This document shows, in pieces, positions 31,590 through 57,736 of a stretch of 64,000 nt of DNA. A model generated the notes under the pieces. The model was not told the origin of the DNA. It searched no databases and saw nothing but the letters and a program-made list of their open reading frames with translations. How positions within the stretch are numbered: position 1 is the stretch's first letter; every line of letters begins with the position of its first letter. Location: NCBI RefSeq assembly GCF_963675165.1, contig NC_087379.1, forward strand, positions 2,360,201 through 2,424,200, in the 5' to 3' direction. This stretch comes from Halichondria panicea. Its lineage: Eukaryota; Porifera; Demospongiae; Suberitida; Halichondriidae. The position numbers and the translations under genes are program-made.

Positions 31590-34500
31590 ATGGCTCTAAA
31601 TCCACAAGCTTTCGAGCAGTTCACACTGAGACAAATTCGCATTACTGAGAATGAGTTAGGACATGGTTCCTACGCTGTTGTCATGGAGCTAGAGTATCGA
31701 GGACTGAAATGTGCCGGCAAGAAGCTTTATCAAGTTCTCTACGAGACTGGAATCGGGCATGCAGCACGAAGGTATCTAGAGGAGTGTCACCTGCTCAGTC
31801 AAACTAGGCACCCCAACATTGTCCAGTTTCTGGGAGTCTGTTTTGAGGAAGGCTCTCAGTTCCCCATCCTAGTCATGGAGTTTCTCCCCATCAACTTGAC
31901 CAGCTGCCTCGAGCGCTATGGTATTCTCCCCGATGAGATCAACTTCTCCATCCTCCATGACGTCTCACTGGGCCTGGCCTACCTCCATGGCCAAACACCA
32001 GTCATTGTGCACAGAGACCTCTCAGCCAACAATGTCCTCTTGTCCACTAACATGACGGCCAAGATATCTGATCTGGGGGTTGCTTGAATATTGAACCTCA
32101 TCCCCCTTCAAGTGAGTCGAATGACGGAGACCCCTGGCACCCCAGCGTACATGCCCCCCGAAGTGATGGTTGCTAACCCCCACTACAACACCAGTGTGGA
32201 TGTGTTCTCCTTTGGGATAATGATGATTCACACCTTCACGGCAGAGTGGCCACTACCAAAGATTGGCCCCAACAGAATCGATCCTGCTAATCCCAATGGT
32301 CTGATACCAGTGACGGAAGCTGAACGACGTGAAGAGTTTCTTCGAAGCATTTCCCCAGACCACCCTCTGATGGACCTCATCATGCGCTGTCTCAGCAACA
32401 ATCCTCAGCAAAGGCCTAAAGCAGCGGAGATAGTGGGTCGGATGGTGGGTGTGGTACTTAAACACCCTCCCTCCTTTGAGAACAGAGTGGAGATGCTCCA
32501 GCGAGTGAGTGCTCTACTGTCAAAGAAGAGGGAGCTTGAGAAGGAGGTTGTGAGGAAGGACTCGGCAATCCAGGAGAAAGCAGGAGATAACGAAGCACTG
32601 GCCGGGGATAAAAGACGACATGAGGAAGAAAGTAAAAACACTGTCGAGCGTATGCAGTTGGTGCACTCTGTGGAAACTGATCAGTTTAAATTGGAGAATG
32701 AAGATCTTAAAGGTAAATTCGAAGAAAGAGAGACAATTGTTATCATGAAAGATGCTAGGATTACTGAGTTAGAACGTCGATGTAAGCAACTCACTGAAAA
32801 AGTGGAGCAGCAAATCAGAGACAAAAACTCTATTATTGCTGACAAAGATTTGACTATTGCTCACAAAGATTCAACTATTGCTCACAAAGATTCGATGCTT
32901 GCCTCCAAATGCACTTCCCTTCAGAAGAAAGAAGCCACCATTCAGATTTTAAATGACCAACTCACCAAAACTAGACACTACCTGACCAGTAAACCACAGG
33001 TGAGCTCATCAACACTGTACTACTAAGTGCATGCACACATCTAAAATAATTATAATACTTAGTGTGACAGGCTCTGGGAAAAGGGCCAAAGTGGCGCAAG
33101 CTATAATTTTTGCGATCTATATACCAGATGATAGGGCAAAGAATTGCCTACGCATTGATATTGTTAGTGTGCACATACCTCGTTCCATTCCTGAGTTATG
33201 CGCGTTGGAAACTCGAAGCTGTAAAACAGCAGTATTGAGAAATGCCCACTCAAAGATTGCTAAATTGGGGAAAGTAAGGTAATGGTGGCTGCTTAGACAA
33301 AGTACTTTATTTGGATTCAGAGCATCAGATTTTGCAGAGAGGTAGTAGCAAGACTGTAGATAACATTAGAAAAAATATTTTTTTATGAGATTATACACTG
33401 TAGCAAGTAATACATGTACTACATGTATGTATGATAGAGAAGAGAGTATCGAACGTAGGCATACTGTACATCAGATGTATGCGGAGAGTAACGTGACCTG
33501 TCACAAGCTTGGAATTTGCACACTGACCAATCTAAGCGTGGGTGATGTAATCTACTTTCAGATACAGGAAGTCACGTTACTCTCAGCATACATCTGATGC
33601 ACAGTATGCCTACGTTCGATACTCTCTCTGTCATAATTATACTCTTGACTGTAGCCTATAAATCTTGATACCAAAATCTGCTCCCAGAGCCTGTCACATA
33701 ATATGATACCGTCTTTTCATAATTATACATAATTATATTCCACCTTACTCTTCCAATACTATGATGTGTACAAAGAAGCGCCTTAAATAACCAGTTTCAA
33801 TTTTTTTCCCACATGAAATATAATGTTCACAAGATATTAACGTTACAATCATTCTAAACTTGATTTGCAGCACACAAGCGATTGACTGTCTGTATTCTCC
33901 AGTCCTTACAGGTTCAGTTGTCCTACAGTCAGTGCTCTACAGCTCCAGTGAATATGACTAGTGGAGTAGCGGTAACCATCAATGGCAAGGTCTACTATGG
34001 TGGAGGAGTCTGTGATGATGATTATGGCAGCTACTGTGTTCACTGTTACGATCTGCCGCAAGATGTCTGGTCAACTCTGCCCAGACTTCCTGTACGGTAT
34101 TTTGGTCTAGGGGAGGTCAAAGGTGAACTGGTAACAGTTGGCGGTGTGACTTCATCCCTCTCTGTATCCAACGTGGTACATGAGTTTGTCAAAGGAAGTA
34201 ACTGGAAACAGACGATCCCACCCATCCCCATAGCGAGGTATTGGCCAGCAGTCATTAGTCTTCCAGCATATCTGGTTGTAGCAGGAGGTGGGTTATTCCT
34301 TGGTGCCCTCACTGATAATGTTGAGATCTACAACATCAGCACCTCCCAATGGAGCGAGACAGACAGACTACCGTATATTTGTAATGACCAAAGAGGAATT
34401 GTCTACAACAACACAGTGTACCTAATGGGGGGATCTGACGGCAAGAATCTAAACAAGGTGTTAGCTACTCAAGTCGACAAGCTCATCTCAATACACCGAC

Positions 34501-34823
34501 AGGATGATGGGAGTGCCAACAAAGCCGACTCTGTCTGGAATACATCATCTAACACACCGTCTTACCACCCCTCCCCTGTAATGATATCAGACACCCTCTT
34601 TGCTGTTGGTGGAATGAATCATGAAGAGGAAGCCACTCAAAGGATCTATGCCTACTCGTCCGCGATGGACTCCTGGCTCTACGTTGGTGATCTACCATCT
34701 CCTATAGCACACGCTGCCACTGTGTCACTGTCTTCAACAGAGTGCCTTTTGATTGGGGGATGGAACAAAGGAGAAAGACAATCAACTGTGTATAAAATTA
34801 GTATCACAACAACCATTAATTGA
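31590..34823 (+). pseudogene. Kinase-coiled-coil-Kelch gene, copy A (one in-frame stop)
   Basis: Two coding exons, 31590-32999 and 33912-34823, joined in phase 0, would encode 773 codons. Domains match copies B and C: TKL-like kinase (GHGSYAVV loop, CAGKK, HRDLSANN, DLG), coiled coil with repeated IAHKDST units, and Kelch repeats. Codon 166, just after DLGVA, is TGA (32085-32087) where B and C have CGA (Arg). It is the only defect seen in the gene. The remaining 1.4 kb of frame, both splice sites and the Kelch exon are intact. CGA to TGA is a CpG transition, so this is a recent nonsense mutation, a polymorphism or a sequencing error. An upstream non-coding exon with a GTAAGT donor near 31429 and a CACACAG acceptor at 31578 is shared with B and C. 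Confidence 0.85.
33062..33698. mobile_element. DNA transposon relic with nested MITE in copy A intron
   Basis: Outer ends GTGACAGGCTCTGGGA (33063) and its complement (to 33697) with TA nearby on both sides. Nested inside is a second inverted repeat with arms of about 65 bp, 33432-33497 and 33570-33634 (left contains AGAGTATCGAACGTAGGC). No transposase was recognised. Confidence 0.7.
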
Positions 34824-34898
34824 TTGATAGGTGTATTTTATTGAGTGAATGCTGAAAGGTTAATTTGTGTAGTACCAGCTCCACCCCCTTATATACCG

Positions 34899-35013
34899 TA
34901 TAGCAGGTAATTTTCGAGGGACAAAATATTCGTGGTCGCTTCATTCGTGGGTAAAATATTGTGGTCAGACCTCCAACCACGAATATTTTGCCCCACGAAA
35001 ACTACACGCTATA
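34899..35013. mobile_element. TATAGC-type MITE after copy A
   Basis: Left TATAGCAGGTAATTTTCGAG, right CGAAAACTACACGCTATA; interior matches 31188-31376 (TTCATTCGTGGGTAAAATAT). Confidence 0.75.
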
Positions 35014-35039
35014 CAGTAGATTTCTTATAGATTTCATGA

Positions 35040-35215
35040 TGTGAGACACTATTAAACTGTTCTCCTGGTGTCATCCTGTGCTCTGAGAGTGTGGATGTCC
35101 AGCCTGCCCTACACTGATGAGCATAAGGTATTATTAAGGTTCTGGTCCATCCTAGGATCCTAGGAGTTATAGGTCTCACAGGAGCCACTGTGAACTTGTC
35201 CACTGCATGCCCCGG
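35040..35215. pseudogene. Relics of DNAJC25 exon 1 and of CWF19L1
   Basis: At 35055-35090 the plus strand reads AACTGTTCTCCTGGTGTC, then CCTGTGCTCTG after a 3-bp insertion, as in DNAJC25 exon 1 (57964-57996). At 35107-35215 the sequence matches 51378-51475, whose minus strand encodes VDKFTVAP followed by a GTGAGA donor in the decayed CWF19L1 gene. So remains of two genes lie side by side here, as expected of a decayed segmental duplicate. Confidence 0.65.
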
Positions 35216-35399
35216 GCCCAGAGGAGGGAGGACACAATTAACCTTAGCTCTAATTAGCTAATTATCGCGACCTTTTAATTACATTCTTTGAATGATTCAT
35301 CTTTTCTTTCTTTATAACCTCTACATATTGGACACAAGAGCTAGAGCCTTTTCTCCTACTGGAGGTACCCCTATGGCCAAGTTGTCAGGACCTGAAGGT

Positions 35400-35590
35400 A
35401 ATAGGACCTATAAGAAGCTCCTCAAGTACTCCTATCTCTAAGATCCCTGTGAGAAGCATCCCAGGCACTCTGATCTTGTCTCTGTGAGAAGCACTCTTGA
35501 TCCTGGAGACAGGATCCCTATGAGGAGCACCCCAGGCACTCCTGTCTCCAAGATCCCTATGAGAAGCACCCCAGGCACTCCTGTCTCTGT
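35400..35590. repeat. Minisatellite of about 37 bp
   Basis: Degenerate tandem units around CCCTATGAGAAGCACCCCAG followed by GCACTCCTGTCTC. Four to five units. No gene assigned. Confidence 0.7.
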
Positions 35591-35599
35591 GATAAAGCT

Positions 35600-37188
35600 G
35601 CAACATGGAATTGTTTAGTTCAGAGTGTCTCCAACATGAAGAACATCAATGACACTAACAGTCTCAGCTTCTAGCACCCCTTTATTTGTATGGTTTGCTC
35701 ATAGATAGTAGAGGGGAGGGATTGGAAACATCTCAGGTGACCAATGTATTGCCCTAGAGAATTCTGACACCATGCGTGTTGCATTCCGCAAGTATTGATT
35801 GCGATTGATTGCGAGCCAGATGCAAAGACAAAAGAGAAGAAAGTGAAGAAAACTGCAGTAAGCACTGGCAGAGCTAGTCTGTATGTACATTATCCATAGT
35901 AAATGTATGGTTTACATCATTTACCTAATTTATTTGATCATCAGAGCTCCATGTTATACTGTTTTACATGTATTTAGCTAAGAATTGGTAAGTAAGAAAC
36001 TTTATGGGGGGATGTCTTGAGCTAGGAAGTAGTCATGGTTGCTTGAGAGTGATCAGAGTGTAGAGGGAGCATTGAAATATGCAGTAGGCATAGCCAAGTT
36101 GAGCATTATGCTGTTTAATGTTGAATATTTGCTTTTAAGTGTGAAAACAAGGATTCAAAAGTAACTTATTTTGCAGGGGAGCTACTGGTTAACAATAAAT
36201 TATACATCACTATTGTTTAGTTCTACATGTTGCTTAATGATCCCGATGTGCAGTAAGAAAAGATTTTCCTTGCTAACGTTTATCGTTTTGGAAATATACT
36301 AATTCAAACTTACCCATACATTTTTTCCCAGGGGTACTCAGAAAATCAGAAAATCTGCCAAGACCCTTTTGTATGCCAACGGCAGAGGGGAGGGACACAT
36401 GATAACCCCACTGTTATGTATTATGATTAGTAAATTCTTTTGCAAGAGCTAAACAGTGACCGATGACGAGAATACACCATTGCCTAAAAGGGCGTCAGGC
36501 TCATAAAAATTATGTTTTGTGTTTGTAAACATTTTTATGTAAACATCAAAATTGTGTGATTGTGTGAAAGTCATAATGTTATGAAGCAGTGAACAGTGCC
36601 TAGTACTAGTACCATAAAGTATAAATAATTATTGAGTTCTTCCTAGATTTAATTTCTTTGTAAATGCATGCCTTGTTATTTTCAAGGCTTGGAGAATGTG
36701 TAATCTTCACTCAAGTATTTGCAAAGAGAAAAGTGTCAGTCATTCAGATGTACAACAGCAACCAGAGCAACATTTCTATTGAAATTTGACCAAGTGCAGC
36801 AATAACATGCATCATAATTATAATTATACACGTAATAATAGCTGTTAGCCATAAATATAATGCTCATGATTATCAATGTTCAATTTATAAATAGTTGTGG
36901 TCAGTTATATTGCAGTAATTTGTGACGGAGGAGGAGGATGATCAACTGGCACATTGTAGTATATATTCGCACGTACATTTGATAAAACAGTAATAATTGA
37001 TAGCAACGAGGGATCCATTCGTTTGGGAGAACTTTCCTCCAATTTTACTTGACGGTGTGAAGTGTAAAATGTGCCCACCATATCTCTGAAGAAGCATTCC
37101 ACATCTCACATCTTCAGTTGTGGAAGCTCTTGAATGCTTGATATCTCTTCAGTGCAAGTGAGAGAGATCTTTCCAGCAGTTCACTCCT
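35600..37188. other. Non-coding AT-rich stretch
   Basis: No ORF with recognisable content and no structured repeat seen on either strand. Confidence 0.4.
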
Positions 37189-37480
37189 AGACTCGCAAGC
37201 CGTCACTGTTGCAGGCGAACAGTAGACTGGTCAAACTCCGTGTTGAGACTCGTGTTGCACAGTCAGCATATCAGAAAATATTTTAAGTGGCTGCGGTTTT
37301 CGTGACGTCAGTATACTGCATGTGATACGTAGAGTTTTCTAGTGAAACGTCACTATCATTGATCTTGTGGTAACCGCATGCGGTTAGTTGCCACAAATAT
37401 CGTGGCAAACGTTACACAAGTCTCAACACGGAGTTTGACCAGTCTACTGTTCGCCTGCAACAGTGACGGCTTGCGAGTCT
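37189..37480. mobile_element. 292-bp MITE with 11-bp target duplication
   Basis: Near-perfect arms of about 62 bp (left begins AGACTCGCAAGCCGTCACTG, right ends with its complement). The direct repeat AGTTCACTCCT sits outside both ends (37178-37188, 37481-37491). It may be 9-11 bp depending on where the ends are drawn. No ORF. Confidence 0.88.
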
Positions 37481-37511
37481 AGTTCACTCCTGTGTACCCA
37501 TGGTTAGGCTC

Positions 37512-37582
37512 TTGAATCAGCCGCCCTTCTCAAGGTCTCTCCCTCCTCAGGTAGGAAGGGCGGCTAATTCATGAGACTGGCA
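37512..37582. mobile_element. Short inverted repeat with GCCGCCCTT ends
   Basis: TCTTGAATCAGCCGCCCTTC and AAGGGCGGCTAATTCATGAG face each other across about 30 bp. A single arm of the same sequence is found at 57810-57840 (CTCATAAATTAGCCGCCCTT). Confidence 0.6.
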
Positions 37583-38450
37583 TGCAACGGAGAGACCTGA
37601 TTAGCAAAGCATGTTGGCTTTAATTACCGCATTAGTCGCTTCCGGAATTTTGAGTATAAAAAGAGCTGCCCAGGACGCGACCTTTGACCCCGAAAATTTC
37701 ATTCAAGCCTTAGTAACGAGCTGTTTTTTTCTTTTGCGCAAAAGCGCTCAGAACCCATTCATACACACCGTGAACCACTAAAAAAATACACAGAAGGGAG
37801 GGGAATACATTCCTGGTGGGTTTTCTTTTTTACCAGAATCAAAAAGACAAAAATAAAAATTTATGATTATGGCTGACAAATAAATAATGCTTAGGTAGGT
37901 CTGTAGGTACAGTAAAAGGCTATGTCTATACAGCTCCAGGTTAGCTACAGTTAGCATTACTCCAGTGAACTCTTCCAAAGAGTTTTCCTTGATTTCTTGC
38001 ATATAAATAGACGGCATTGAGACTTGAGACTACGCCATTGTGCATTGTAGAAAGTTGGCGAAATTGATTCTGAAAAAGAATTTATATCAGCATTAATTAA
38101 TGTCAGTATATCAAACAAATGTTTGCTATCATTTAGAGTTGTAGAGTGCGGTGCAAACAAGTGAGAGCTCTCCCGGGTAGGGGTTGGTAGTGCTGGCATC
38201 ATTTTGGGGAAGAACTATGCTGGTATCATGGGAACATTAGTGAGAATAATACGAAGGTTTTGGAAATACAGGTCAGTCGAGTCAGTAGTATAAACATCTG
38301 TAGGCCTGATGAAAGTTGCGAGTACATGGGATGTGGAATAATGTGGGAATGAATAATAGAACTACCAACCCCTAGCAGTGAGTCTTCCTCCAGAAAAGAG
38401 GCCAGAGAGGTAACGATATAATTATTGCTTGATACAGTAGTAAGACTTAC

Positions 38451-40271: not shown

Positions 40272-40338
40272 AATTATCATACAGGACAACAATTATACAT
40301 GTACAATTTTTTATTGAAATTCTGTTAACTGGAAAAAA

Positions 40339-41758: not shown

Positions 41759-44700
41759 ATGGCTGTAAATCCACAAGCTTTCGAGCAGTTCAAGCTGAGA
41801 CAAATTCGCATCACTAAGAATGAGTTCGGACGAGGTTCCTACGCTGTTGTCTTGGAGCTAGAGTATCAAGGACTGAAATGTGCCGGCAAAAAACTTTATG
41901 AGGTTCTGTACGAGACTGGAATCGGGCATGCGGCACAAAGATATCTGGAGGAGTGTCGCCTGCTCAGTCAAACTAGACATCCCAACATTGTCCAATTTCT
42001 GGGAGTGTGTTTTGAGGAGAGCTTTCAGTTCCCCATCCTAGTCATGGAATTCCTCCCCACCAACTTGAGCAGCTGTCTCAAGCGCTATGGTATTCTCCCC
42101 GATGAGATCAACTTCTCCATCCTCCATGACGTCTCACTGGGCCTGGCCTACCTCCATGACCAAACACCAGTCATTGTGCACAGAGACCTCTCAGCCAACA
42201 ACGTTCTCTTGTCCACCAACATGATGGCAAAGATATCCGATCTGGGGGTTGCTCGAATTTTGAACCTTACCCCCCTTCAAGTTAGTCGATTAACGGAGAC
42301 CCCTGGCACCCCAGCGTACATGCCCCCCGAAGTTATGGTTGCCGACCCTCACTACGACACCAGTGTGGATGTGTTCTCCTTTGGGATCATGATGATTCAC
42401 ACCTTCACAGCAGAGTGGCCACTACCAAAGATTGGCCAGACACGAATCAATCCTGCTAATCCCAATGGTCTGATACCAGTGACAGAAGCTGAACGACGTG
42501 AAGAGTTTATTCGAAGGATTCCTCCAGACCACCCTCTGATGGACTTTATCATGCGCTGTCTCAGCAACAACCCCCAGCAAAGACCTACAGCAGCGGAGAT
42601 AGTGAGTCGGATGGTGGGTGTGGTACTTGAATATCCTCCCTCTTTTGAGAACAGAGTGGAGATGCTCCAGCGAGTGAGTGCCCTACTGACAGAGAAAAGG
42701 GAGCTTGAGGAGGAGGTTGTGAGAAAGGACTTGGCAATCCAGGAGAAAGCAGGAGAGATCGAGGTACTGGTGGAGAAGAAAAGACGACAAGAGGAAGAAA
42801 GTGAAAACACTGTCGAACGTATGCAGTTGGTGCACTCTGTGGAAGCCGATCAAATTAAATTGGAAATTGAAGATCTTAAAAGTCAACTCGAAGATAAAGA
42901 GACAATTGTTAACACGAAAGATGAATTTATTATATCAAGAAATGCAAGGATTGTGGAATTAGAAACTCAATGTCAACAACTCACTGAGGAGGTGGAGCTA
43001 CAAATTGCTCACAAAGATTCGATCATTGCCTCCAAAGATACTTCCCTTCATAAGAAAGAAGCCACCAATCAGAGTTTGAACAACCAACTCACCAAAACCC
43101 GAGACTACCTGACCAGCAAACCACAGGTGAGTTGATTAACACTGTATACCATAAAATTAGGCCTGGGATCGAGGCTAATGCAAAGCTAGTGGGGGGTATG
43201 GTTTCCTGGTATTGAACCACAAAAATATTATACGAGCATTTCTGCTGAGGGCTCTGGAGCCAAATATATAGCGAAAATTTTCACCCATGAACATTTCTCG
43301 CTATACAGTAAATGATTTGCTGTACAGTCAAGTTAAATAGGGCATTGAAATGATCTTTTTGTTGAGAAATTTTTTTGATTAGCCCCCATACCCCATCGAA
43401 ATTCCTGGATCTGCCCCTGTACAGCCAATGGCTCATAATTATGCCTCGAGGCGTAGCCACACGAGGGATACGGTAAAGCTGACTGTGTGTGTGTATTCCA
43501 GCTGTAACTGCTCAACGGTTGCAATGTGACGAAAACTAACAGCTTCTATAGGCTTCTAGCCACGTTCTCTTGGATTTCGATTCGTGGATTAGCTAACTAA
43601 AGCTTCTTTCTCGAGTTACGGCTAGTTTGACTCACCCTTTAGAATCTTTCATCTGTTCGCACAAACTTTCTATTTAACACATGAGTTAGCCTTGCACTAA
43701 AGCGCTAGCTTTTCGTTAGCTACTAGAGTCAGAAAAGATCTGTTAGAACAGCTAACTAGCTAGCCATTGTGAACTTGAACTCTTTGGACACACCCTTTAA
43801 TTATTCCTGTGAATGCAATGCGCATGCGCGCTCATTCCCACATGTTAGAGAATCCAGTGGCAGAATCAACTTACTTGAGGTCCTAGTATAGTATACCGGT
43901 AAGCCACAAAACAATGATAACATAATTATAGACTAGATAACAATAGATTCATGTACACAGTCTTTTCTTCTCAGTATTAATATAGATAGATACGTACATA
44001 CTTCCTGCTTGTTTATATAATAATACTGTCTGTGCTATACTACTGTCTGTGCTTAAATTCTCTCTTAGTCTGTGCCTTTGGCAAAGGTTTGCTCCCACTG
44101 TTTGGCTACAGGCCATTTAAATAACATGCAGTTGCTTCAGTATCGTTGATTTAAGTCTGTGATTTTTTTTTTCTTTAAAATTTTTTATGCAAAAAAGCAT
44201 ACAGGGTTTACAACAAATAGCGCTAGGCTAATAAAACGTTGTCTACCTGGGAACGAACAGACGAACAAGGCAGTAAAAAAAAGAGAAAAAAAAAGAATGT
44301 TGTTCACAGCATGCATGCATGCAGTAACTACGGAGTGCAGGTATACAAACGGTGCAGGTGGTTTTTTAAAATGAGCGGGGTCTGTGCCGAGACAATTTCA
44401 TCAGGCAAGGCATTCCAATGTTTGATGACATTTATGAAATATGAAAATTTGTGTGCATCTGTTGGTACAAACGGGGTGAAGAGTTGGACTGAGTTTAAAC
44501 TTCTTGGAGATGGTTGTGGGTGGGGAGTGAAGGCTGTTGGAGGGATGCATAATTCTTTTCTTAGGATTTTAAAGCAAAGCTTCAACTTTTGCATGCGTCT
44601 TCGGATAGACAGTGGCTTTAGGTCCAGGGAGGAGCACAGAAATGGGTAGCTTGATGACCATGCAGTCTTGAGTTATAACTCTTCCCGCACATTTCTGAAC

Positions 44701-46323
44701 GTTTTCCAGTAATTTTGTGGATTTGAGTTGGTGGGGGTCCCAAACTGCCCCGCAGTAGTCTAGCTTCGGGAGTACAGTGGTTTGATATCTTGTGGCGAAG
44801 GTGTTTTGGGGCGTCACGAAAGTTCCTATGTATTCTACCTAGCAGTTGTTTGGAAGACTTGGAGATGTGATTGAATTGTACTGGACTATACTGGCTATAA
44901 TTTGACAAAGGTTTAATTTGCTCCCACTGTTTGGCTACAGGCCATTATTTTAAAACGATCAGTATACACTATACATGTAGTAACTGTGAACACCCCTTTC
45001 TTGTGAAATAATCAAAGCACATTGCAAATTATTTACCTCTTCTATAACACTCTAATACTTTTGAGCGAAAGCAAAAACATGGCGAGAGGCATTAGCAAGC
45101 GCACGCTTGCAACACTCGTTATGACAGCACTTTAAATGTCTTATTGCAGTTAGGTCATGCAAAGTCAATTTGTAATTTTTTGTGTGGCCTTAGAGAGTAT
45201 AAGTGCAATAAGTTTTTATTTCACACTTTTTTCTAATCCTCATGATTCATAGGCATCAAGCCATCTGAAAAATGCTTGTAGCTAGCTAGCTTTTTCACTT
45301 ATACTAGATCTACTTTCTAGTTTCATGTTAACATGAGATTAGCGTTACTGTACATATCCCCTAAATAAATCAACACACAAGTTATTGACCGTCTATATTC
45401 TCCAGTCCCTACAGGTTCAGTTGTCCTACAGTCAGTGCTCCGAGGCTCCAGTGGAGATGTCTGGGGGACTAGCAATAACCATCAATGGCAAGGTCTACTA
45501 TGGTGGGGGAGTCTGTGATGGCGTTGATGACATGTTTTATGTCCACTGTTACGATCCGCCACAAGACTTTTGGTCAACTCTGCCCAGACTTCCTGTATGT
45601 TACTTTGGTCTAGGAGAAGTAAAAGGTGAACTGGTAGCAGTTGGCGGTAGGGATCCATCTCGCTCTAAATCCAACGTGGTACATGTGTGTACCAAAGGAA
45701 GGAACTGGAAACGGACGATTCCACCAATGCCCACAGCGAGGAGTTGGCCAGCAGTCGTTAGTCTCCCAACACATCTGGTCGTAACAGGAGGTCGGTTGAG
45801 CTCTGGTGGCTACACTGATAATGTTGAGATCTACAGCATCAGCACCTTTCAGTGGAGCGAGACAGACAGACTACCATATGTTTGTATGGACCAAAGAGGA
45901 ATTGTCTACAACAACACAGTGTACCTACTGGGCGGATCTGACAACAATAATCTAAATGAGGTGTGTGCTGCTCAAGTCGACAAGCTCATCTCAGTAGACC
46001 GACAGCACGATGGTAGTGTCAACAAAGCTGACTCTGTCTGGAATACAATATCCAATACCCTGTCTTACCGGCCCTCCCCTGTAACGATATCCGACACCCT
46101 CTTTGCTGTTGGTGGACTGATTCGTAAGGAAGCAACTCAAGCGATCTACGCCTACTCATCCTCCATGAACTCCTGGCTCTACATTGGTGATCTACCATCT
46201 CCTGTGGCACACACTGCCACTGTGTCACTGTCTCCAGCAGAGTGCTTTGTGATTGGGGGAAGTAACAAATCAAAAAGACAATCTACCGTGCATAAAATTA
46301 GAATCACAGCAACTATTCCTTGA
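41759..46323 (+). CDS. Kinase-coiled-coil-Kelch protein, copy B
   Basis: Coding exons 41759-43126 and 45415-46323, phase 0, 758 aa. The start is set at 41759 by homology (MAVNPQAFEQF); an ATG at 41732 lies before the CACACAG acceptor (41747) and is probably intronic. Residues 20-300: protein kinase with GRGSYAVV loop, CAGKK, HRDLSANN, DLG for DFG, TPGTPAYMPPEV and DVFSFGIMM; HRDLS and general pattern suggest the TKL group. Residues about 310-456: coiled coil ending LTSKPQ. Second exon: Kelch repeats with paired Gly (VYYGGG, LVAVGG, VYLLGGS, LFAVGG, CFVIGGS) alternating with aromatic residues, forming most of a beta-propeller. A cytoplasmic kinase with a substrate-binding propeller is likely; no signal peptide or membrane segment. 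The intron carries a LINE relic. Confidence 0.87.
43268..43312. mobile_element. Very short TATAGC inverted repeat
   Basis: TATAGCGAAAATTTTCACCC faces ATTTCTCGCTATA within 45 bp: minimal member of the TATAGC family, in the copy B intron. Confidence 0.5.
43440..43640 (+). repeat. Dispersed repeat R1, second copy
   Basis: Matches 28375-28640: ATGCCTCGAGGCGTAGCC, short TG tract, TTCCAGCTGTAACTGCT, CTCTTGGATTTCGATTCGTG, TTTCTCGAGTTACGG. TG tract only about 8 units here. Confidence 0.7.
44089..44945 (-). mobile_element. LINE reverse-transcriptase 3' relic between 29-bp direct repeats
   Basis: On the minus strand 44890-44320 reads, across several frames, TTVLPKLDYCGAVWDPHQ, ENVQKCAGRVI and FSYFINVIKHWNALPDEIV, the usual C-terminal end of a non-LTR reverse transcriptase; frameshifts disable it. 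A 29-bp direct repeat (starts TTGCTCCCACTGTTTGGC) lies at 44090-44118 and 44917-44946. It could be a long target-site duplication, although about 45 bp separate the left copy from the T-rich tail. Confidence 0.75.
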
Positions 46324-46336
46324 TTATTATGGCTCG

Positions 46337-47780
46337 TGTAACAGACTGGACTATGAGAATAATACGTAGTGTACTATAATTAGATAACCTAACCTTTGTG
46401 ATATGTGATTGTAACGACCTTTTGATTCAGTATGTTTTTGGAGATGATTACTGCCGAGATTGCATTGAGAAGAAATCTAATTGAATCCTCCTAAATACAG
46501 CTAGAAACCGTCTCCAAAAGTACTCGAAGGAAGGACTATCTATCCTTTGCAGGATATTTCACTCGAAAAAGAAATCGTGAAGGAAGGAGGTCAAGTCCAG
46601 ACGACATGGCAAGTATGGAAGAGACTCAAGACTTGCCGGTTGGACGAGCTTTCGCCTTGAACTCCAGACATCTGGGAGCAGTATACGTGAAGGAAATAGA
46701 GTAAACAATGGAACTTCGCACGACACGTATTTTCGAACGATTTAGCACCACGGTAAGCAAAAACAAACAGCGTTATGCACCCTACACAAGCCGACTTACA
46801 TGCCTTAGGAACAAGCTGGGTTGAATAGCAACGCTTAACGTCGTAGCTCTTGCAATGATGACGTAATAATCCAGAAAACAAAAGTGTGCGATAGTTGGAA
46901 TTTCGAAAAAAGTAATGTATCCCCGAACCGAGGTACTTGCCGCTTTAATTAGCTAATATCGAGCTTCCCATCAGCTTTAGTATGTCCTATTTAGTATATA
47001 CGTAAGCAACACTAAAATTACTTCACTGCTACTCAAAACAAACAATAAACTTTCAAACAGTAAGTGCTGAATCAGCACTTTTAACACCCACGTGGATGGT
47101 TGTATAAAATCTGTCATTATGGACATACTAAAGCTGATGGGAAGCTCGATATTAGCTATTTAAAGCGGCAAGTACCTCGATTTGGGGATACATTACTTTT
47201 TTTCGAAATTCCAACTATCGCACACTTTTGTTTTCTGGATTATTACGTCATCATTGCAAGAGCTATGACGTTGCTATTCAACCCAGCTTGTTCCTAAGGC
47301 ATGTAAGTCGGCTTGTAATTGTGTAGGGTCAGATTCTGCATAACGCGTAACGCTGTTTGTTTTTGCTTACCGTGGTGCTAAATCGTTTGAAAATACGTGT
47401 CGTGCGTAGTTCCATTGTTTACTCTAGCCAAAGGCAGGTAACTGATACCGGACCAGAACCTAATAAGGAGCATCGATCAGATGATGAGATCGAATCAGAG
47501 GAGCATCGATCTGACGAGGAACCAAGCGAGACCGGATCCGAACCTATTAGGAAGCATCCAGTGGTAGATGCACCTAACCCGTTTCTACGAACACGATCAA
47601 GACGTATCAAACCCCCTAAACGTTTAATGACTATCACGGTTAACGCTCGAGACGAGCAGTCCGGGGTATGTAACAGACTGGACTATGAGAATAATACGTA
47701 GTGTACTATAATTAGATAGCCTAACCTTTATGATATGTGATTGTAACAACCTTTTGATTTAGTATGTTTTTGGAGATGAT
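46337..47780 (+). mobile_element. LTR-retroelement relic with fold-back insertion
   Basis: Direct repeats 46337-46449 and 47669-47780 (both start TGTAACAGACTGG, about 94 percent alike) look like parts of long terminal repeats. Just before the right one, 47425-47660 reads as an acidic chain ending RTRSRRIKPPKRLM, resembling the polyprotein tail of Ty3/Gypsy elements. Most of the internal region is gone. Confidence 0.6.
46699..47424. repeat. Long palindrome with arms of about 290-305 bp
   Basis: Arms 46699-46988 and 47120-47424 are reverse complements with scattered mismatches and small indels (outer ends GAGTAAACAATGGAAC). The 131-bp spacer has no ORF. It sits between the LTR-like repeats, so it is either a fold-back element inserted there or a rearranged copy of internal sequence. 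Confidence 0.8.
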
Positions 47781-48680: not shown

Positions 48681-48711
<31 letters not shown>

Positions 48712-50894
48712 CTAAACAAAGAGAAACATCGATCACTAAAAGGCTTAGAGAATGGTACTTATATAGATCCCATTTTAGCAGGGAACTATAATTATGAGCT
48801 ATATAATTTTTATAGTACCAGTACTATATATGGGCTACAAAGTGCAACATCAACATTACATTTTTATTGTGATTTACAAGGATACACAGTCATTATAATT
48901 ATAGCTAGATGCTTCGTCTAGTAACACAACCTTACAAGTACACACAGTTTATGTTGAAGTCATAATTATGAATAATTATAGTACACACAGTTTATTAATA
49001 ATTATAGTAACGATGATGCAGTGCATCATTAAAAATTAAGTATTTGCGTTCTGCAGTGCCGCTTTTATCTCACTCTTGCAGCTACCAGTAGCTAGACTAA
49101 GTGCTCTAGTGCAGTTACTAAGTAACTATCTATTAACAGTTTTTGCTATGCATGATTCTCAAGATACGGAAACTGCCTTCAATGCGAGTTTTTATGTAAA
49201 CTATAGCCAGAGCGAAGCTTTAATGTTACTTGAGGCTTGTTGGTTTCAGAGTCTTCTTTGTGTTAATATATAGCCTAGCTTGCTTAGCACTATTCTAAAT
49301 CAGTTATAGGCCTCGTCCAACGGTCACTATGTAATAGTTAGATAATGGGCATGAGGTATCTATGTGTTATAGTGTCCCTCATCCCTCGGGCTACGCCCTC
49401 GAGCTTTGGGACACTATAACCATAGATACCGAATGCACATTTAGATCCCAAAACCTATTGGCTACTAGAAATGCACTAGCTTAGCAACAGTCAACCTATC
49501 TATATAAACAGTCAACCTAGCAACTGCACCTGATTCATTTCTTTTGAAAATTAATATCTGGCATCTCTGTGGCTCTACTAAATCTTTGTCTACGGTATAG
49601 CGGGTCAGTTTCGTGGGGTAAAAAATTCGTTCAACTAGAGAAACGGTAGTTTTCGTGAGTAAAAATTTCGTTTAGTCTCGTGGCTGCACAGCATTCCTAC
49701 GTTCAGATAAGCCACGCCTATAGAGTAGTGTTTGTGTCTGTTTGTTTGTGTCTGTGTCTGTCTGTCTGTCTGTGTAGACTGCTACATGCTGCTCAAGGAT
49801 GGATCAAGTGCAAGTAAGAGTTTCTATTGGCTTCTAGTCATGTTTTCTTAGATGATTTTAATTCGTGGATTTGCAACATAAATTAATGCTTAATTCGTTC
49901 TCGAGTTACGCCTAGTTTTGCTTACTTGGAATGCCATTGCAGCCTTTTCAGAAGAGCACGTAGCCAAACAGAGGAGTAGGAAGATGTTTTTGTAAGGGGC
50001 TGCTTTACAAATCTGGGGGTCCGGGGGCTTGCCCCAGGAAAATTTTGGCACTCTACATTCCCGGAGATTAATTCTGAGCAAATTTGGTATAAAATTATCA
50101 GTATCACAATGTTTATGCTATATACTTTAAATCTATAGAATCTGTTAAGTGGGTATGAATATACAATAAAAAAGATTGCATTGCATGTGTCATTGTACTT
50201 CGGAGGAACGTTTCAATCTTCGCAGTGAAGAAAACGAACGTTTTAACTACAGCATGGATCCAATTACACTTGATCTATAGTCTAGCTACCCTCTTTAGTA
50301 GCTGTTCATGGCTACCATTGATGTCAAAAATGAGAGGAGACTTGCTTGTTGCAGATTCGCAATGTGCTTGCTCTTTATAAGAGATATCTACGATGTGGTT
50401 CATCTAGCTGACCTTTGTACTGTGTACGTAACTATGCTAGTGCTTAGTAACTAATAGCTAGCTAGCTACTAGCTGGACTTCTAGCTAGCTGCTCCGAACT
50501 TCATGGAGCAAGTAGGTAAGGTAGCTTGAGATAAGGGGGTGCTCCAGCATCCTGAGCACCCGTGCTTCCTACGCCACTGCCAAACTTGGTACTCTACTTA
50601 GTAGTTAGCTCTGCACTAGAACGCTAGCTATTGGTAGCTGCAAGAGTGAAAAGAGAGCTACAAGGCTATATACAGTATAGAGCCGCAGCCATTAATTTAG
50701 CTTTTAGACTTCGTACTTTTGGCATCCTTTTTAGCATCAATCATAGTCAATTCATTTCCCACTCCTTGAGTTTTCCTATAGATTCAGCGTAAAAACATTA
50801 TGATATCTGTGTGTATTACTTTATGTTATGTACCTTTGACACATTCAGCACCCGCGGTGCTTTCATTACTTACAATAAAGTAAGTTTTCCTTAC
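48051..50894. other. Non-coding repeat-rich stretch
   Basis: No supported gene. Contains further TAGCCTCG-type ends (48089-48235), a (TG)n at 48684-48709 within the dispersed segment also seen at 27749, a TATAGC-type end at 49600 and a diverged R1 copy at 49740-49920. Confidence 0.45.
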
Positions 50895-52653
50895 CAAAGA
50901 TTTGACTAGTTCAGTGTAGGGACAGTTGGTGGCAGTGGGTGGTTGCTGAGTCAGCTTTTTCTCGTCCATGGAGCTCATGGGTGTGACAGAGAATGCATAC
51001 AGGTACTGCAGGTATGAAGATAATGTAATCATTAGTAATACTAATGGGACTAGAATGATTTCAACTGACTCTTTTCTTCTTGTCTGGATTTCCAACTTTA
51101 AGAATCGTATCACATGATGTGGCTTGCCTTGGAGGATTTTGTGATTCCTGCATGAAATGAAGCACAATACAGTTAGCATCAAAAGTTGTGGAGGTATTAC
51201 TGTGTAGGGATTTAAATGAGGCCATTAAAAATGAGAGATATAAGACGAATGTATAAATAATAACGTTAAATGACTTTCTGAAAGCTTAGAAAGATGCTTT
51301 TCAGATGATGTGTGGAGCTGCAAAATGGTAGCCAGGCTTGAGACACATGGCCAGTTTACTCAGAGGTCCATCCTGCATGAGCATAAACTATATGTTATTA
51401 AGTACTGGTCCATCCTACAATAACTGGGAGCTAGGTCTCACAGGAGCCACTGTGAACTTGTCCACTGCCCCGGGCCAATCAGAGGTGAGGAGAATGTCCA
51501 CTCCACGGTAGCCCTCTCCACTGCACTGACCCTCCAGCCAGGACACATCAGAGCCAGTGAGCCAGTGAAATATTGTCACTAGAGGGAGAAACAAAAACTA
51601 CTTCTCCCAGTTATTCGGAAGAGAACTTACCAATAGGTTATCTCCCTTATTTGATACTGATAGTTCCTCCGTTGGTATAGCTCCCACTAAGATAGGCCAC
51701 CCTCAGACCACTGGACGCACTGTACACTCCACGCTGACCTGTAATGGAGTGTGACTCATGTGTGTACTGATAGAACATGCATACACTGTACCTAGACATG
51801 TGACATTGGGGCAGAGCTCTCCTCCATCACGTGACAAGTCTCCATAGAACTGGGCATGCTCAGTTGAACACGAGCCAAGTCGGTAGAGGCACTGTGCATG
51901 GGGGTGTAATAAATGTTACGTTAGCAGTGGCGGATCCAGGAAAAATGAAAGGGGGGTTCCAAACTAACGAGCGCGCAGCGCGAATTTTTTTTGTTACGCC
52001 CACTTCCTGTCACACGGACTAGGGAAAAATCCCATACTCTGCCAGGGGAAGTCCCATAATAGACTTGCGTAGAGCTAGCTAGCTGCCACGAACAGTCAAC
52101 TAGCTAGCCTAGGCTAACCTGAACACTCCTTTGGCAGTTGATACATCAAAACAACAGGTTAAATCATTGAATCAAATTACAATAGCTACAAAAACTGATA
52201 AATAGCTAGCTGGTGTCATTAAGCTTCTTCTAAAGTTAGTTCAAAAGGGGGGGTCAAGGGACCCCATGGACCCTCCTCTGGATCCGTCACTGGTTAGAGG
52301 AAGGTTATTTCAACATTGCTTAATTACGTACCTATTTCCACCCCCTCCCGATACTTGCTCCACTCCTCCTAGATCCTGGCAGTCAGAGCTAAAGAAAGAT
52401 ACAACACACAATAGCAGCTACATAAAGGGACAATAAATGCACTGGCACTGCATGCAGTGTATACGTGTGCATCCATTGAATCAATGAATGTATCTACCTC
52501 AAAATCTTTGTTCTTGGAGAGGATGCTCTGGACTTTGCTATTAACAGTTGCTTGAAGTGACCCTCCACATCTCCACACACCGACACCAGACTGAGTGAGG
52601 GGGAGAAGGTAGTTAATTCTAGGTGAGACAGCGACGTTCATGATCCGAGACAT
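50895..52653 (-). pseudogene. CWF19L1: Decayed CWF19L1-like gene
   Basis: Minus-strand exon remnants in the correct order: VCGDVEGHFKQL then, one base out of frame, SKVQSILSKNKDF (52580-52498); EEWSKYREGVEI (52368-52332); CLYRLGSCSTEHAQFYG through CPNVTCLG (51891-51792); QRGVYSASSGLRVAYLSG (51738-51660), then an in-frame TAA; SDVSWLEGQC and GYRGVDILLTSDWP (about 51560-51420); KLAMCLKPGYHFAAP ending in TGA (51301-51303); RNHKIL then a frame shift before VGNPDKKK (about 51090); YLYAFSVTPMSSMDE to ELVKSL (51005-50895). These follow CWF19L1, a homologue of the lariat-debranching cofactor Drn1/Cwf19. At least two frame shifts and two stops make it a pseudogene; the C-terminal CwfJ domains were not found. 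Confidence 0.85.
51925..52292. mobile_element. 368-bp non-autonomous element inside the CWF19L1 relic
   Basis: Ends CAGTGGCGGATCCAG (51925) and CTGGATCCGTCACTG (to 52292), 15 bp with one mismatch, flanked by GTTAG at 51920-51924 and 52293-52297. The left interior (ACGCCCACTTCCTG, GCGCAGCGCGAA) resembles the element at 9138. Confidence 0.88.
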
Positions 52654-52699
52654 TCAAATACAAACCACACTCTCTACTATACCCTGATCCTAGATATAT

Positions 52700-53352
52700 C
52701 CTGGAAGAGAAGGGCGTGTGTCGTAAAACCACACTCTCTACTATAGTACTATACTCTGATCCTGAAAGAGAACGGCGTGTGTCGTACCATGACCTTTTGC
52801 TTCTGCCTTATCTGCATAGATCCAGAGATTGATCTGCATTGTGTTGTCTGGCGTGGCATCTTCACCAAGATCGATCAAGCAAGGTTTCTTTACAGGTAAG
52901 TACGGTTAGTTTAAATATACAATACTGTAACTGCATATATGGTCCTGTAAGCTAGGCTGTATAGATAGATCTACCTCAAGTATTTTCTAGTGTACATTCC
53001 GTGAATGCAAAGCAAGGATTCTTTTTATTGCGATTGCTTGAATCAACTACCGTAGCGTATTATCACTATAGCGCGAAATTTTCAAGGCACTTATATTTCA
53101 GCATTTTGTTGCACAATGTTCGTGGAAATGACTGCTTACCGGAAGCCACGCGTATTAATCTTTGCACGTTATAGCAGATCATTCTAATTAAAGAACAATT
53201 TTGTGGACTTAATTTTCGTGTACGTGTAAGATTGCTAACCCCAGAAATCCGCGAAAATTAAGCCCCTCAAAAATTTCGCGCTATATGGTATATATTATAA
53301 TAGCTGCCTATTTAATATTGCATGCTTTTCTATTCACACAGTATCGAAGACA
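52700..53352 (+). promoter_or_regulatory. Leader region of copy C
   Basis: A non-coding exon ends at a TTTACAG/GTAAGT donor near 52896, followed by an intron to the CACACAG acceptor at 53341, 12 bp before the ATG. The segment after the donor (ATACTGTAACTGCA... GGTCCTGTAAG) is shared with copy A (31437-31470), so the leader exon and intron were part of the duplicated unit. Confidence 0.6.
53067..53285. mobile_element. TATAGC-type MITE in copy C leader intron
   Basis: 219 bp, ends TATAGCGCGAAATTTT and complement. Nearly the same element lies in opposite orientation at 56101-56308 (shared GACTGCTTACCGGAAGCCA and AATTAAAGAACAATTTT). Confidence 0.85.
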
Positions 53353-56300
53353 ATGGCACAAGCTTTCGAGCAGTTCACTCTGAGACAAATTCGCATCACT
53401 GAGAATGAGCTGGGACATGGTTCCTACGCTGTTGTCATGGAGCTAGAGTATCGAGGACTGAAATGTGCCGGCAAGAAGCTTCACCGAGCTCTGTACGAGG
53501 CTGGAATCGGGTATGCAGCACGAAGGTATTTGGAGGAGTGTCGCCTGCTCAGTCAAACTAGGCACCCCAACATTGTCCAGTTTCTGGGAGTCTGTTTTGA
53601 GGAAGGCTCTCAGTTCCCCATCCTAGTCATGGAGTTCCTCCCCACCAACTTGACCAGCTGTCTCGAACGCTATGGTATTCTCCCCGATGAGATCAACTTC
53701 TCCATCCTCTATGACGTTTCACTGGGCCTGGCATACCTCCATGGCCAAACACCAGTCATTGTGCACAGAGACCTCTCAGCCAACAATGTCCTCTTGTCCA
53801 CCAACATGACGGCCAAGATATCCGATCTGGGGGTTGCTCGAATCTTGAACCTCAACCCCCTTCAAGTGAGTAGAATGACGGAGACCCCTGGCACCCCAGC
53901 GTACATGCCTCCTGAAGTGATGGTTGCCGACCCCCACTACGACACCAGTGTGGATTTGTTCTCCTTTGGGATCATGATGATTCACACCTTCACAGCAGAG
54001 TGGCCACTACCAAAGATCGGCCCCACCAGAATCAATCCTGCTAATCCTGACATACTGATACCAGTGACGGAAGCTGAACGACGTGAAGAGTTTCTTCGAA
54101 AAATTCCCCCAGACCACCCTCTGATGGACCTCATCATGCGCTGTCTCAGCAACAACCCTCAGCGAAGGCCTAGAGCAGCGGAGATAGTGGGTCGGATGGT
54201 GGGTGTGGTACTTGAACACCCTCCCTCCTTTGAGAACAGAGTGGATATGCTCCAGCGAGTGAGTGCCCTACTGACAGAGAAGAGGGAGCTTGAGGAGGAG
54301 GTTGTGAGAAAAGACTCAGCAATCCAGAAGAAAACAGGAGAGATCGAAGTACTGGCGGAGGAGAAAAGACGACAAGAGAAAGAAAATGGAAACTTTGTCG
54401 AACATATGCAGCTGGTACACTCACTCGAAATTGACCAGCTCAAAATGGAAAATAACAAACTTGAAACTGAACGAAGTGTGGAGGTAGAGGACCTCAGAGT
54501 TGAATTGGAGCTCAAAGAATCATTGGCTGTCACAAAAAACTCTACCATTGCTAGTTTAGAAACTCGATGTAAGCAACTCACTGAAGAGGTGGAGCAACAA
54601 ATTGCCAACGTCAACTACACTCACAACGAGCTTGCATCTAAAGCTACGAAAATTGTTCAACTGGAAACAGAGCAAGCAGACAAAAACTCTATTATCGCTT
54701 ACAAAGATTCGACTATCGCTCGCAAAGATTCGATCATTGCCTCCAAGGATACCTTCCTTCAGATGAAAGAAGCCACCAATCAGAGTTTAAACGACCAACT
54801 CACCAAAACCAAAAACTACCTGACCAGCAAACCACAGGTAAGCTCATCAACACTCAACACTGTACAACTAAGTGCACACATCTAAAATCTGATACCATCT
54901 TTTCTTTTACTATAGTGCCAGTAGTTTATACTTTTCCAATCGATTGACAAGTTTTTAATCGATAGGATATGTGATTCTAAGAAACGACATTGCCTCAATA
55001 CTTAGCATCTAATCTATACCTTTACGCTTACAGCAATACTATACTATAAGCACCACTTCAAAAGAAGGTGCCGATCTTGAATACCGGTTTTTATTTGTGT
55101 GACTGGCTGGATACTAGCAAGGGCGTATAAAGAGAAGAGGGCATGCAACTTGCACTATTCTCAGACTCATACTGTTACAGTAGCTATTTTTAGAACTGCC
55201 CACAAAACGCCCATGCGTAACCTTTGACCGCGTAATAATGGTAAATTAGAATCTGCTGCACTTGCTAGCTAGCTCGATGATTGCATCATTCACCATTCAG
55301 CATTGACACAAAACCCAGCAATACCGGTATGGTTCGTACTAGCAGTATCAAAAGCAGAGGCAAAGCATCCAATTAACAGCACCAAACCTGCTCGAGGAAG
55401 TCCTGTTCCCTGCATTACTGATAGAGATCTACCAGTAGTTACCCGAGGCGCGTGGGCGGCCACGAGTGTAGTAGCTAGTCGTCTGGTTTGTTTCTCTGTA
55501 TCTGAGTCTGCTTACCTGGATTCCATAACACTGCGTTTACAGCATGGATAGCCTTCACACAACAAGTTTTAAGTTAATAGCTTCTTAGCTTCGTTGTCAA
55601 ATAAAGCTAAGAAGCCTCACACGCTGGCTGCTTGGCTGCATGCGTCTTTTATTCGAGGTGCGAACTTTACAGCTGAAGTGATCCCGTGTACCAGGAACAA
55701 TGGAACAGGGTCAAGCTAAAGGTTAATTTGCTAATCCTGATCCCTGAGGAGGTACGACAGTTTTTTCCATTGTGGAGACGTTTGCTTACATGGCAGTTTA
55801 CCGCGACTTTGCCATGACAAACTTTAGGCATGTAGAAAGTTTATAACTAACTGTTTAGCTATAATACATAGTAACTCCGTAAATAACACCGCTCACTTGT
55901 TTGTCCGTATACTGTATAGCTGGTTATTGAAACGAAAATTTAGTGTCTAGAAAATTGGGTATTGAAATCTCTCTACTGTAGGGGTGTGGTTATTTTAACC
56001 TCCATCCTCAAAAATATAATCCTCGAAATGTTTGGTTTGGGCAATCCACAAAAATTGAAAATAACCCGCTATACTGTATATGATTCTATTTGTAGTACCG
56101 TATAGCGCGAAATTTTTGAGGGGCTTAATTTTTGCGGATTTCGTGGGTTAGCAATCCTACAAGTCCACGAAAATTGTTCTTTAATTAGAATTATCTGCTA
56201 TATAACGTGCAAAGATTTAAAGGCCTGGCTTCCGGTAAGCAGTCATTCCGCGAACATTGTGCAACAAAATGCTTTTAGAGGCCATTCCACGAAATATAAG

Positions 56301-57736
56301 TGCCTATACAGTATATCCGGCATCTGATATCAAGTATGCCGATCATGTACGGTACATAGCGAGTTGCATGCCGTTTTCTCTTTATACGCCCTTGATACTC
56401 TAGTCAGTATCACTTAGTACTATAATTGCTGTTTAATGTTTCGCGAATTGCTCAAACTAAACATTTGTTTCCGAAAATAGAGGTTCAAATAACTATACAC
56501 CCCTGCAGTAGAGAGGTATTTCAATATCTAGAGGTAAACCATGATTCCCACGAAAATCACGAAAATAACCAGCTATGTGGTAATAGCATGTGACCAAGTT
56601 GCCTATATTGCATAAAACACGGGGGGATTCTCATGCTATAGATCACAGCGACCCCTTACCAAACCATGCCTCGAGGCTACGCGACCGTGTAATAATATAA
56701 CACGGAAAGGACTCTACAACTTTTATTATACCCTTGTAAGATTTAGCGTTACATGTACATTTCAAAGTGTCCTAAATTATTTGCAGCATACGAAATGACT
56801 CTCTGTATAATTCTCCAGTCCCTACAGGTTCAGTTGTCCTTCAGTCAGTGTTCTGAGGCTCCAGTGGAGATGTCTGAGGGACTAGCAATAACCATCAATG
56901 GCAAGGTCTACTATGGTGGAGGAGAATGTTATGTCGGTGATGACGAGTTCTGTGTCTACTGTTACAATCCACCACAAGACGTCTGGTCAACTCTGCCCAG
57001 ACTTCCTGTACGATGGTTTGGTCTAGGAGAGGTCAAAGGTGAACTGGTAGCAGTTGGTGGTGTTGATTCATCCCACTCTAAATCCAACGTGGTACGTGTA
57101 TTTAATGAAGGAAAGAACTGGAAACTGACGATCCCACCTATGCCAACAGCGAGGGATTCACCAGCAGTCGTCACTCTCCCAACACATCTGGTTGTAGCAG
57201 GAGGTGATGTGGGCCGTGTTGTCTACATTGATAATGTTGAGATCTACAACATCAGCACCTCCCAGTGGAGCGAGACAGACAGACTACCGTATGCTTGTGA
57301 GGACCAAAGAGGAATTGTCTGCAACAACACAGCATACCTAATGGGGGGATATCACGGCAATTATATAAACAAGGTGTTAGCTGCTCAAGTCGACAAGCTC
57401 ATCTCAGCAGACCGACAGGATGATGCGAGTGCCAACAAAGCCGACTCTATCTGGAATACAATTCCCAACACACCATCTTACCGCCCTCTCCCTCTAACGA
57501 TATCTGACACCCTCTTTGCTGTTGGTGGAAGGGATTGTGAAAGTGAAACCACTCAAAGAGTCTACGCCTACTCATCCTCGATGGACTCCTGGCTCTACGT
57601 TGGTGATCTACCATCTCCTGTGGCAGACGCTGCCACTGTGTCACTGTCTCCAACGGAGTGCCTTGTGATTGGGGGAAGAGACGAAGAAAAAAAATCAACT
57701 GCGTATAAAATTAGTGTCTCAACAACTATTTTTTGA
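53353..57736 (+). CDS. Kinase-coiled-coil-Kelch protein, copy C
   Basis: Coding exons 53353-54837 and 56828-57736, phase 0, 797 aa. Kinase residues: GHGSYAVV loop 21-28, Lys41/42, HRD 138-140, DLG 158-160, PAYMPPEV after the activation segment. All residues needed for catalysis appear present, with Leu replacing the Phe of DFG. The coiled coil (about residues 305-490) is the longest of the three copies and contains repeated IAxKDS units. The C-terminal exon carries Kelch repeats (VYYGGGE, LVAVGGV, LVVAGGD, AYLMGGY, LFAVGG, CLVIGG). Splice sites and frame are intact. The stop is 205 bp before the DNAJC25 ATG. An ORF start at 56753 upstream of the Kelch exon is intronic: the sequence TTACAG before 56828 is the acceptor in all copies. 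Confidence 0.88.
55915..56073. mobile_element. TATAGC-type MITE (copy C intron, first)
   Basis: TATAGCTGGTTATTGAAACG at left, AAATAACCCGCTATA at right; adjacent to the next member. Confidence 0.65.
56101..56308. mobile_element. TATAGC-type MITE (copy C intron, second)
   Basis: 208 bp, inverted copy of 53067-53285 with few differences. Together they bracket the kinase exon of copy C. Confidence 0.85.

Follow-up and report, generated by a model that had tools for sequence, protein, structure and literature searches.

Why should a sponge carry copy after copy of a gene in which a protein kinase is followed by a coiled coil and a Kelch domain? The question is raised by a 64,000-nucleotide stretch of the Halichondria panicea genome (here called the window; NC_087379.1, or C3:2360201-2424200, with C1, C3, etc., labeling contigs of the 131.46 Mb, 39-contig assembly), for which a preliminary description had recorded three copies of such a gene and had stressed their unusual domain order. 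Judged by sequence comparison, the three window copies have well over a hundred related genes in all as company, and what stands out most is not the domain order but a variable pocket that went unseen in that description. Across many copies, a constant signaling part is combined with a variable recognition part, and codon models place positive selection on the binding surface. We favor, with a probability of roughly 0.58, a germline-encoded recognition repertoire of intracellular TKL-like kinases that have their own pockets and probably serve immunity or self/non-self discrimination. The preliminary interpretation is, overall, partly supported.

Three kinase-Kelch gene models in the window

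The sequence confirms three kinase–coiled-coil/Kelch gene models at 31590–57736 (positions are those of the window, all on the plus strand), each with one phase-0 GT–AG intron, and the previously proposed junctions (32999/33912, 43126/45415, and 54837/56828) are exact. In copy 2, an intact kinase and coiled-coil exon (41759–43126, 456 amino acids [aa]) is followed by an intron of 2288 nt (43127–45414) and a Kelch exon (45415–46323, 302 aa plus stop). Copy 3 is likewise intact, with a kinase and coiled-coil exon at 53353–54837 (495 aa, ATG at 53353), an intron of 1990 nt (54838–56827), and a Kelch exon at 56828–57736 (302 aa plus stop). Copy 1 shares this layout (kinase and coiled-coil exon, 31590–32999; intron of 912 nt, 33000–33911; Kelch exon including the stop codon, 33912–34823), but its first exon is interrupted by an in-frame TGA at 32085–32087 in the kinase activation segment. 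Because this TGA replaces the CGA (Arg) of copies 2 and 3 directly after DLGVA, copy 1 reads as a pseudogene or null allele in this assembly. Kinase exon lengths are divisible by three in all three copies. The TTACAG acceptor said to be common to all copies does not apply to copies 2 and 3, which read CTACAG.

A Pfam scan covering the joined proteins of copies 2 and 3 bore out the proposed domains, with a protein kinase domain (Pkinase, E values of 5e-42 and 1.7e-40; 144.6 and 139.5 bits) and Kelch repeats (Kelch_1, E values of 8.5e-18 and 5.6e-18, respectively). No BTB, BACK, TIR, or death domain was matched at an E value of <=1, and the actin-fragmin kinase catalytic family was not among the matches at the same threshold. 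Since neither joined protein has a membrane-like segment (highest 19-residue hydropathy of 1.37 and 1.23; no signal-peptide program was run), the protein probably resides inside the cell.

A large gene family of two types

With copy 2 as the query, we found 121 kinase-exon matches and 130 Kelch-exon matches in the genome. Merging coil and split fragments and omitting 11 distant matches on C11 and C15 gave 79 kinase loci, and 64 loci were entered from the Kelch matches. A same-strand Kelch exon lies downstream at 60 of the 79 kinase loci. Among the 56 loci of the close kinase type (at least 72% identity), 54 are followed within 5 kb by a same-strand Kelch exon of their own, 0.3–4.9 kb away, and no two share one. 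As controls, a same-strand Kelch exon was present within 5 kb upstream of 13 of the 56 loci, because these belong to neighboring genes of a tandem array, and on the opposite strand at 0 of 56. Pairing of kinase and Kelch exons beyond chance is thus confirmed. Most close kinase loci (47/56) sit in a single array of ~0.85 Mb (C3:0.86-1.72 Mb) on the same contig as the window, as do 45 of the 51 full-length Kelch matches of at least 73% identity; the window copies are outliers of this large expansion. Diverged genes also occur: by Pfam, L071 and L072, the two scanned for both domains, have kinase and Kelch, and a third, L070, has Kelch.

A second kinase-Kelch type (C1 type), whose Kelch exon is ~29% identical to that of the type found in the C3 array (C3 type), is located mainly at C1:15.5-17.4 Mb and C6:0.48-0.80 Mb. 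It comprises at least 129 Kelch exons with a lowest identity of 78% (one member's Kelch exon as the query; 129 of 462 candidates scored). For pairing, 131 of 137 C1-type kinase matches were entered together with a Kelch set of these 129 matches plus 11 from other searches. Among the matches listed, a Kelch exon on the same strand follows within 4 kb for 75 of the 131 kinase matches, compared with 10 that have one upstream and 0 that have one on the opposite strand.

Exchange of exons between genes was considered and rejected, as kinase and Kelch distances correlate (Mantel r of 0.80 for 16 paired genes, a value reached in 0/2000 permutations; r of 0.60 when the window copies are omitted).

The arrays show further structure. 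The C3 array (0.866-1.718 Mb) has two Kelch arms, with 26 minus-strand exons on the left and 19 plus-strand exons on the right. Matches at C1:15.48-17.39 Mb look to be arranged like the C3 arms, and Kelch matches with equal scores are found in one C1 arm and the other, which points to an inverted duplication or exchange between the arms. At C9:0.04-1.44 Mb, there are at least 60 Kelch matches on both strands, shorter than those of Kelch exons linked to a kinase. Kinase exons are also densely clustered at C10:1.70-1.94 Mb, C15:4.0 Mb, C11:4.5-6.5 Mb, and C15:0.68-0.77 Mb.

One protein or two genes

Sequence conservation gives good, though indirect, support for splicing of the two exons into one protein. 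The phase-0 ..KPQ|GTGAG donor was found in 29 of the 30 kinase loci fetched, and the phase-0 CTACAG acceptor was found at 29 of 30 Kelch loci, with copy 2 included in both sets; the exception at the acceptor, L057, reads CTACAA and has an internal stop. We consider it very improbable that the kinase and Kelch exons are separate neighboring genes, as their order and strand are strict and conservation extends to the splice sites and ends there: in successive 20-nt blocks, ungapped identity falls from 0.93 to 0.58 and 0.33 at the start of the intron and rises from 0.40 to 0.84 and 0.98 over its last three blocks. A diverged family member has the same phase-0 junction around an intron of 132 nt. 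There is also no conserved start codon for a free-standing Kelch protein. An in-frame Met upstream of the acceptor is missing in 17 of 30 Kelch frames, and the first internal Met is residue 15 in 28 of 30 loci, behind a strand at residues 2–7 that appears to close the predicted propeller. Two observations favor separate genes. AATAAA or ATTAAA occurs within 300 nt more often after the kinase donor (11/28) than after the Kelch stop (5/28), and 56 of the 131 C1-type kinase matches have no Kelch partner among the matches listed.

A kinase with conserved catalytic residues

Since the kinase and coil exon folded poorly, statements on the kinase rest on its sequence. K44, E65, H141-R142-D143, N148, D161, and E191 are invariant across 30 aligned kinases (copy 1 not among them), and we infer that the kinase is active. 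DLG stands in place of DFG in C3-type kinases, and DFG is present in the two C1-type kinases read. The preliminary assignment as TKL-like holds in part. Against the PDB, the kinase profile matched an EGFR entry best, followed by CTR1, TNNI3K, and then WNK3, a JAK-type kinase, WNK1, IRAK4, and others, which is a ranking of matches and not a tree; it also matches TAK1 and B-raf. The linker between the domains is predicted, with low to moderate confidence, to form two long helices, which suggest a coiled coil, as had been proposed.

Probable positive selection at a twelve-position ring on the predicted Kelch propeller

The Kelch exon of copy 2 contains six GG-ended repeats, and its AlphaFold2 model (mean predicted local distance difference test score [pLDDT] of 92.2; predicted template modeling score [pTM] of 0.90) is a six-bladed propeller with four-stranded blades, matching solved Kelch domains with a query template modeling score of up to 0.79 (Foldseek). 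In the alignment of Kelch exons, hypervariable columns break up the conserved framework, and they do so again in each successive blade.

Mean pairwise synonymous divergence (dS) is equal in the two parts of the gene (0.109 in the kinase domain and 0.108 in the Kelch exon), and nonsynonymous divergence (dN) is 0.032 and 0.105, respectively; dN/dS is 0.29 for the kinase, 0.45 for the coil, and 0.97 for the Kelch exon. For the C3-type Kelch exon (n = 30), M2a improved on M1a by twice a log-likelihood difference (2dlnL) of 778, with 10% of sites at an omega of 8.9. For the C1-type Kelch exon, 2dlnL was 228 and 24 sites had a posterior probability (PP) of >0.9 in a sample of 8 of the at least 129 exons. 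Codon models were fitted with our own script (FastTree topology, F3x4, Nelder-Mead) and not with PAML or HyPhy. The 30 copies used in Kelch site analyses exclude L057 (broken), L064 (identical to L063), and L039 (copy 2 itself), and the 28 copies used in kinase analyses exclude copy 1, L009 (copy 2 itself), L010 (stop), L012 (identical to L011), and L028 (no donor found). Alignments A1 and A2 leave out some near-duplicates and include diverged members.

The selected sites are concentrated on one face of the predicted propeller. The BC and DA loops account for 118 of 300 residues and hold 24 of the 27 C3-type sites (P of 3.5e-8); the remaining three (19, 287, and 288) are in strands, and the AB and CD loops (52 residues) hold 0. 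Loop limits were set by hand from the secondary structure of the AlphaFold model, and site probabilities for this mapping came from a fit with the same likelihood as the M2a fit reported above. The clearest positions form a ring of twelve in the copy 2 Kelch exon, six after the GG doublet (GG+1; 33, 79, 127, 175, 235, and 283) and six between blades (17, 62, 110, 158, 219, and 266). The 30 copies carry 29 distinct rings, with a mean of 9.7 of 12 residues different between copies, and in the closest pairs (4/435), nonsynonymous differences per site are 0.195 at the ring versus 0.017 elsewhere. We take pocket residues 363/380, 461/478, 508/525, and 555/572 of Keap1 to be GG+1 and DA positions. 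In every blade, 16 or 17 residues separate the paired ring positions, and each of these Keap1 pairs, as listed in PMC12664080, is 17 apart. According to published accounts, the substrate pocket of both KLHL20 and Keap1 is built from the BC and DA loops (PMC6720452, PMC4668279).

The same columns recur in the C1 type. Within the 288 columns aligned between the types, which contain 20 of the 24 C1-type selected sites, 15 columns are selected in both, 12 in the C3 type only, and 5 in the C1 type only (Fisher P of 5e-14), and those selected in both include the GG+1 position of all six blades. Because 15 of the 20 aligned C1-type columns are also selected in the C3 type, the same face of the predicted propeller seems to have been diversified in two separately expanded gene sets. 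When ring codons were given a free rate in a partition model, selection was still needed (2dlnL of 66-77 for the C3 type and 36-37 for the C1 type), with a ring omega of 6-8 in the C3 type and about 16 in the C1 type. Localized hypermutation as the source of the variable ring is not favored, as in both types a raised rate by itself gives a poorer fit than selection. Diversifying selection at the ring is well supported, and its strength is uncertain.

A proposed recognition repertoire and its rivals

Under the reading as a recognition repertoire, every pocket would bind a short peptide or protein motif of its own, kinases would be brought together by the coiled coil, and the bound ligand either would be phosphorylated or would trigger kinase activation in the oligomer. 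Many recognized motifs would in this way feed one common kinase output, with diversifying selection varying the 12 ring positions copy by copy while the kinase was kept constant. The driver would most probably be non-self (microbes, viruses, or symbionts) and less probably allorecognition. A more specific proposal, which we put forward tentatively, is an undescribed class of animal intracellular immune receptors, with hundreds of TKL-like kinases in at least two subfamilies reading non-self peptides through private 12-residue Kelch rings. The suggestion that the propeller selects substrates for the attached kinase fits the propeller's pattern of variation, which is that of a surface that binds selectively. 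Of the two main readings, substrate selection is one, and the other, ligand sensing, is at least as likely.

Several observations weigh against a selected repertoire. An immune role is proposed by analogy only. Intact copies in the window number 2 of 3, and the model of the kinase and coil exon is poor (mean pLDDT of 56.7). The ring positions were picked with the variability of both types already in view and, for the C1 type, were placed at homologous columns. M2a is favored for the kinase too (n = 28; 2dlnL of 67, 5% of sites at an omega of 4.3, and 7 sites at a PP of >0.9), and site models ignore recombination, so that gene conversion in tandem arrays can inflate them. The partition model finds a small extra rate at the C3-type ring (2dlnL of 7-10), unneeded in the C1 type (0.1). 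A tree-free minimum-spanning count, built conservatively to favor synonymous paths, gives a weak excess of normalized nonsynonymous over synonymous changes (N/S) at the ring, at 1.66 and 1.22 in the C3 type (P of 0.09 and 0.32) and 3.91 and 1.60 in the C1 type (P of 0.03 and 0.2). Two of 12 shifted control sets were as high or higher (GG+1 shifted +2, 2.70; DA shifted +2, 6.79), and the others ranged from 0.31 to 1.97.

Some of these points would suit turnover with no repertoire function, in which tandem duplication, gene conversion, and relaxed constraint let tolerant loops drift. Six close loci, copy 1 among them, have stops in the kinase exon and two have stops in the Kelch exon, the family contains identical or near-identical duplicates, the tree-free excess is weak, and the kinase itself has a moderate M2a signal. 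Relaxed drift does not readily account for equal dS accompanied by a three-fold dN in the Kelch exon, for BC/DA loops being affected with the AB/CD loops free of selected sites, for the use of the same columns in two subfamilies at 29% identity, or for selection being needed even with a free rate, and we regard turnover as improbable. Less improbable, though still unlikely in our judgment, is that these are substrate-tethering kinases without an immune role, which dock the animal's own, perhaps rapidly evolving, proteins. The same pocket binds peptides of cellular proteins in Keap1 and KLHL20, but 29 distinct rings among 30 copies and a ring omega well above 1 would be unusual for stable self proteins.

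Large, variable tandem arrays are typical of the self-recognition loci of colonial animals. By this likeness, the array could hold labels of self and non-self, or their readers, for encounters between individuals or between cells, and the genome is that of an animal, as 10 matches to wnt exons on 3 contigs show. Because joined copies 2 and 3 lack a membrane-like segment by hydropathy, the proteins are unlikely to act at the surface, and we give allorecognition a low probability, slightly above that of turnover. The recognition repertoire is the reading we retain. If confirmed, it would add the Kelch propeller, a well-understood peptide-binding fold, to such repertoires, fused directly to a kinase and in a probably early-branching animal. 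It would also make testable what an animal living among many microbes recognizes inside its cells. Kelch pockets can be expressed, crystallized, and screened with peptide libraries, so that a search for ligands could move fast, and natural variation among the rings would show how the specificity of a propeller depends on a dozen residues.

Other features of the window

Upstream of copy 1, a fourth Kelch exon remnant (29006–29689, plus strand) is broken, lying in two frames with a stop. The copy 2 Kelch exon matches it by tblastn at 29443-29610 (71%) and, in the other frame, at 29582-29689 (58%), and the outermost part (29006-29065) is a weak match only (E value of 3.1). Inverted repeats with arms 89-99% complementary occupy 46697-47426 between copies 2 and 3, and a 91% inverted pair has one arm before copy 3 (53211-53290) and the other inside its intron (56096-56175); these are perhaps mobile-element remnants. 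There was no Rfam match in 28000-60000. Farther out, large open frames at 10599-13844 (weak UvrD-helicase match, E value of 1.3e-05) and 14262-18764 (no Pfam match at an E value of <=0.001) are possibly parts of one large gene, and an open frame at 61045-61944 with a FAN1 HTH match (E value of 4.9e-08) is probably part of a FAN1-like gene.

Comparison with known systems

In a search of open-access papers, we met with no description of this animal family or of a Kelch domain whose pocket is hypervariable. The combination of kinase and Kelch as such is not new. In Entamoeba histolytica, a few tyrosine kinases are reported to carry kelch domains (PMC2939887); compared by description, they share kinase and Kelch in one protein, and there the genes are few and the organism is an amoeba. 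Two sponge studies report Kelch-motif genes changed by microbial molecules or niche (PMC6208332, PMC11000336), and the two Kelch genes listed in the former go down; we found no link to the window family and made no use of them.

The actin-fragmin kinase of Physarum has its kinase first and Kelch repeats after, with a divergent catalytic domain that has its own Pfam family. Compared by description, it resembles the window proteins in domain order and is set apart by the canonical Pkinase model that matches the window proteins. TKL kinases such as IRAK4, TAK1, TNNI3K, and plant CTR1 are matched by the kinase-domain profile, and the catalytic residues are kept, whereas the sponge proteins add a C-terminal coiled coil and a Kelch reader and have DLG for DFG in the C3 type.

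The propeller fold itself is that of the BTB-BACK-Kelch (KLHL) adaptors, with NS1-BP, Keap1, KLHL20, and Keap1-like designed SAKe proteins among the top Foldseek matches, and the spacing of ring pairs is close to that of the Keap1 pocket. Unlike the KLHL family, the window proteins have no BTB or BACK match, have a kinase as partner, and occur in many copies with a hypervariable pocket. Expanded and positively selected reader domains are a way to build innate recognition repertoires, and the examples compared use other folds. Nematode F-box and MATH adaptors are described as greatly expanded, with positive selection in their substrate-binding domains and a proposed host-pathogen role (PMC5392922). 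Those proteins are ubiquitin-ligase adaptors of other folds, whereas the putative reader in Halichondria panicea is a Kelch propeller carried on a kinase.

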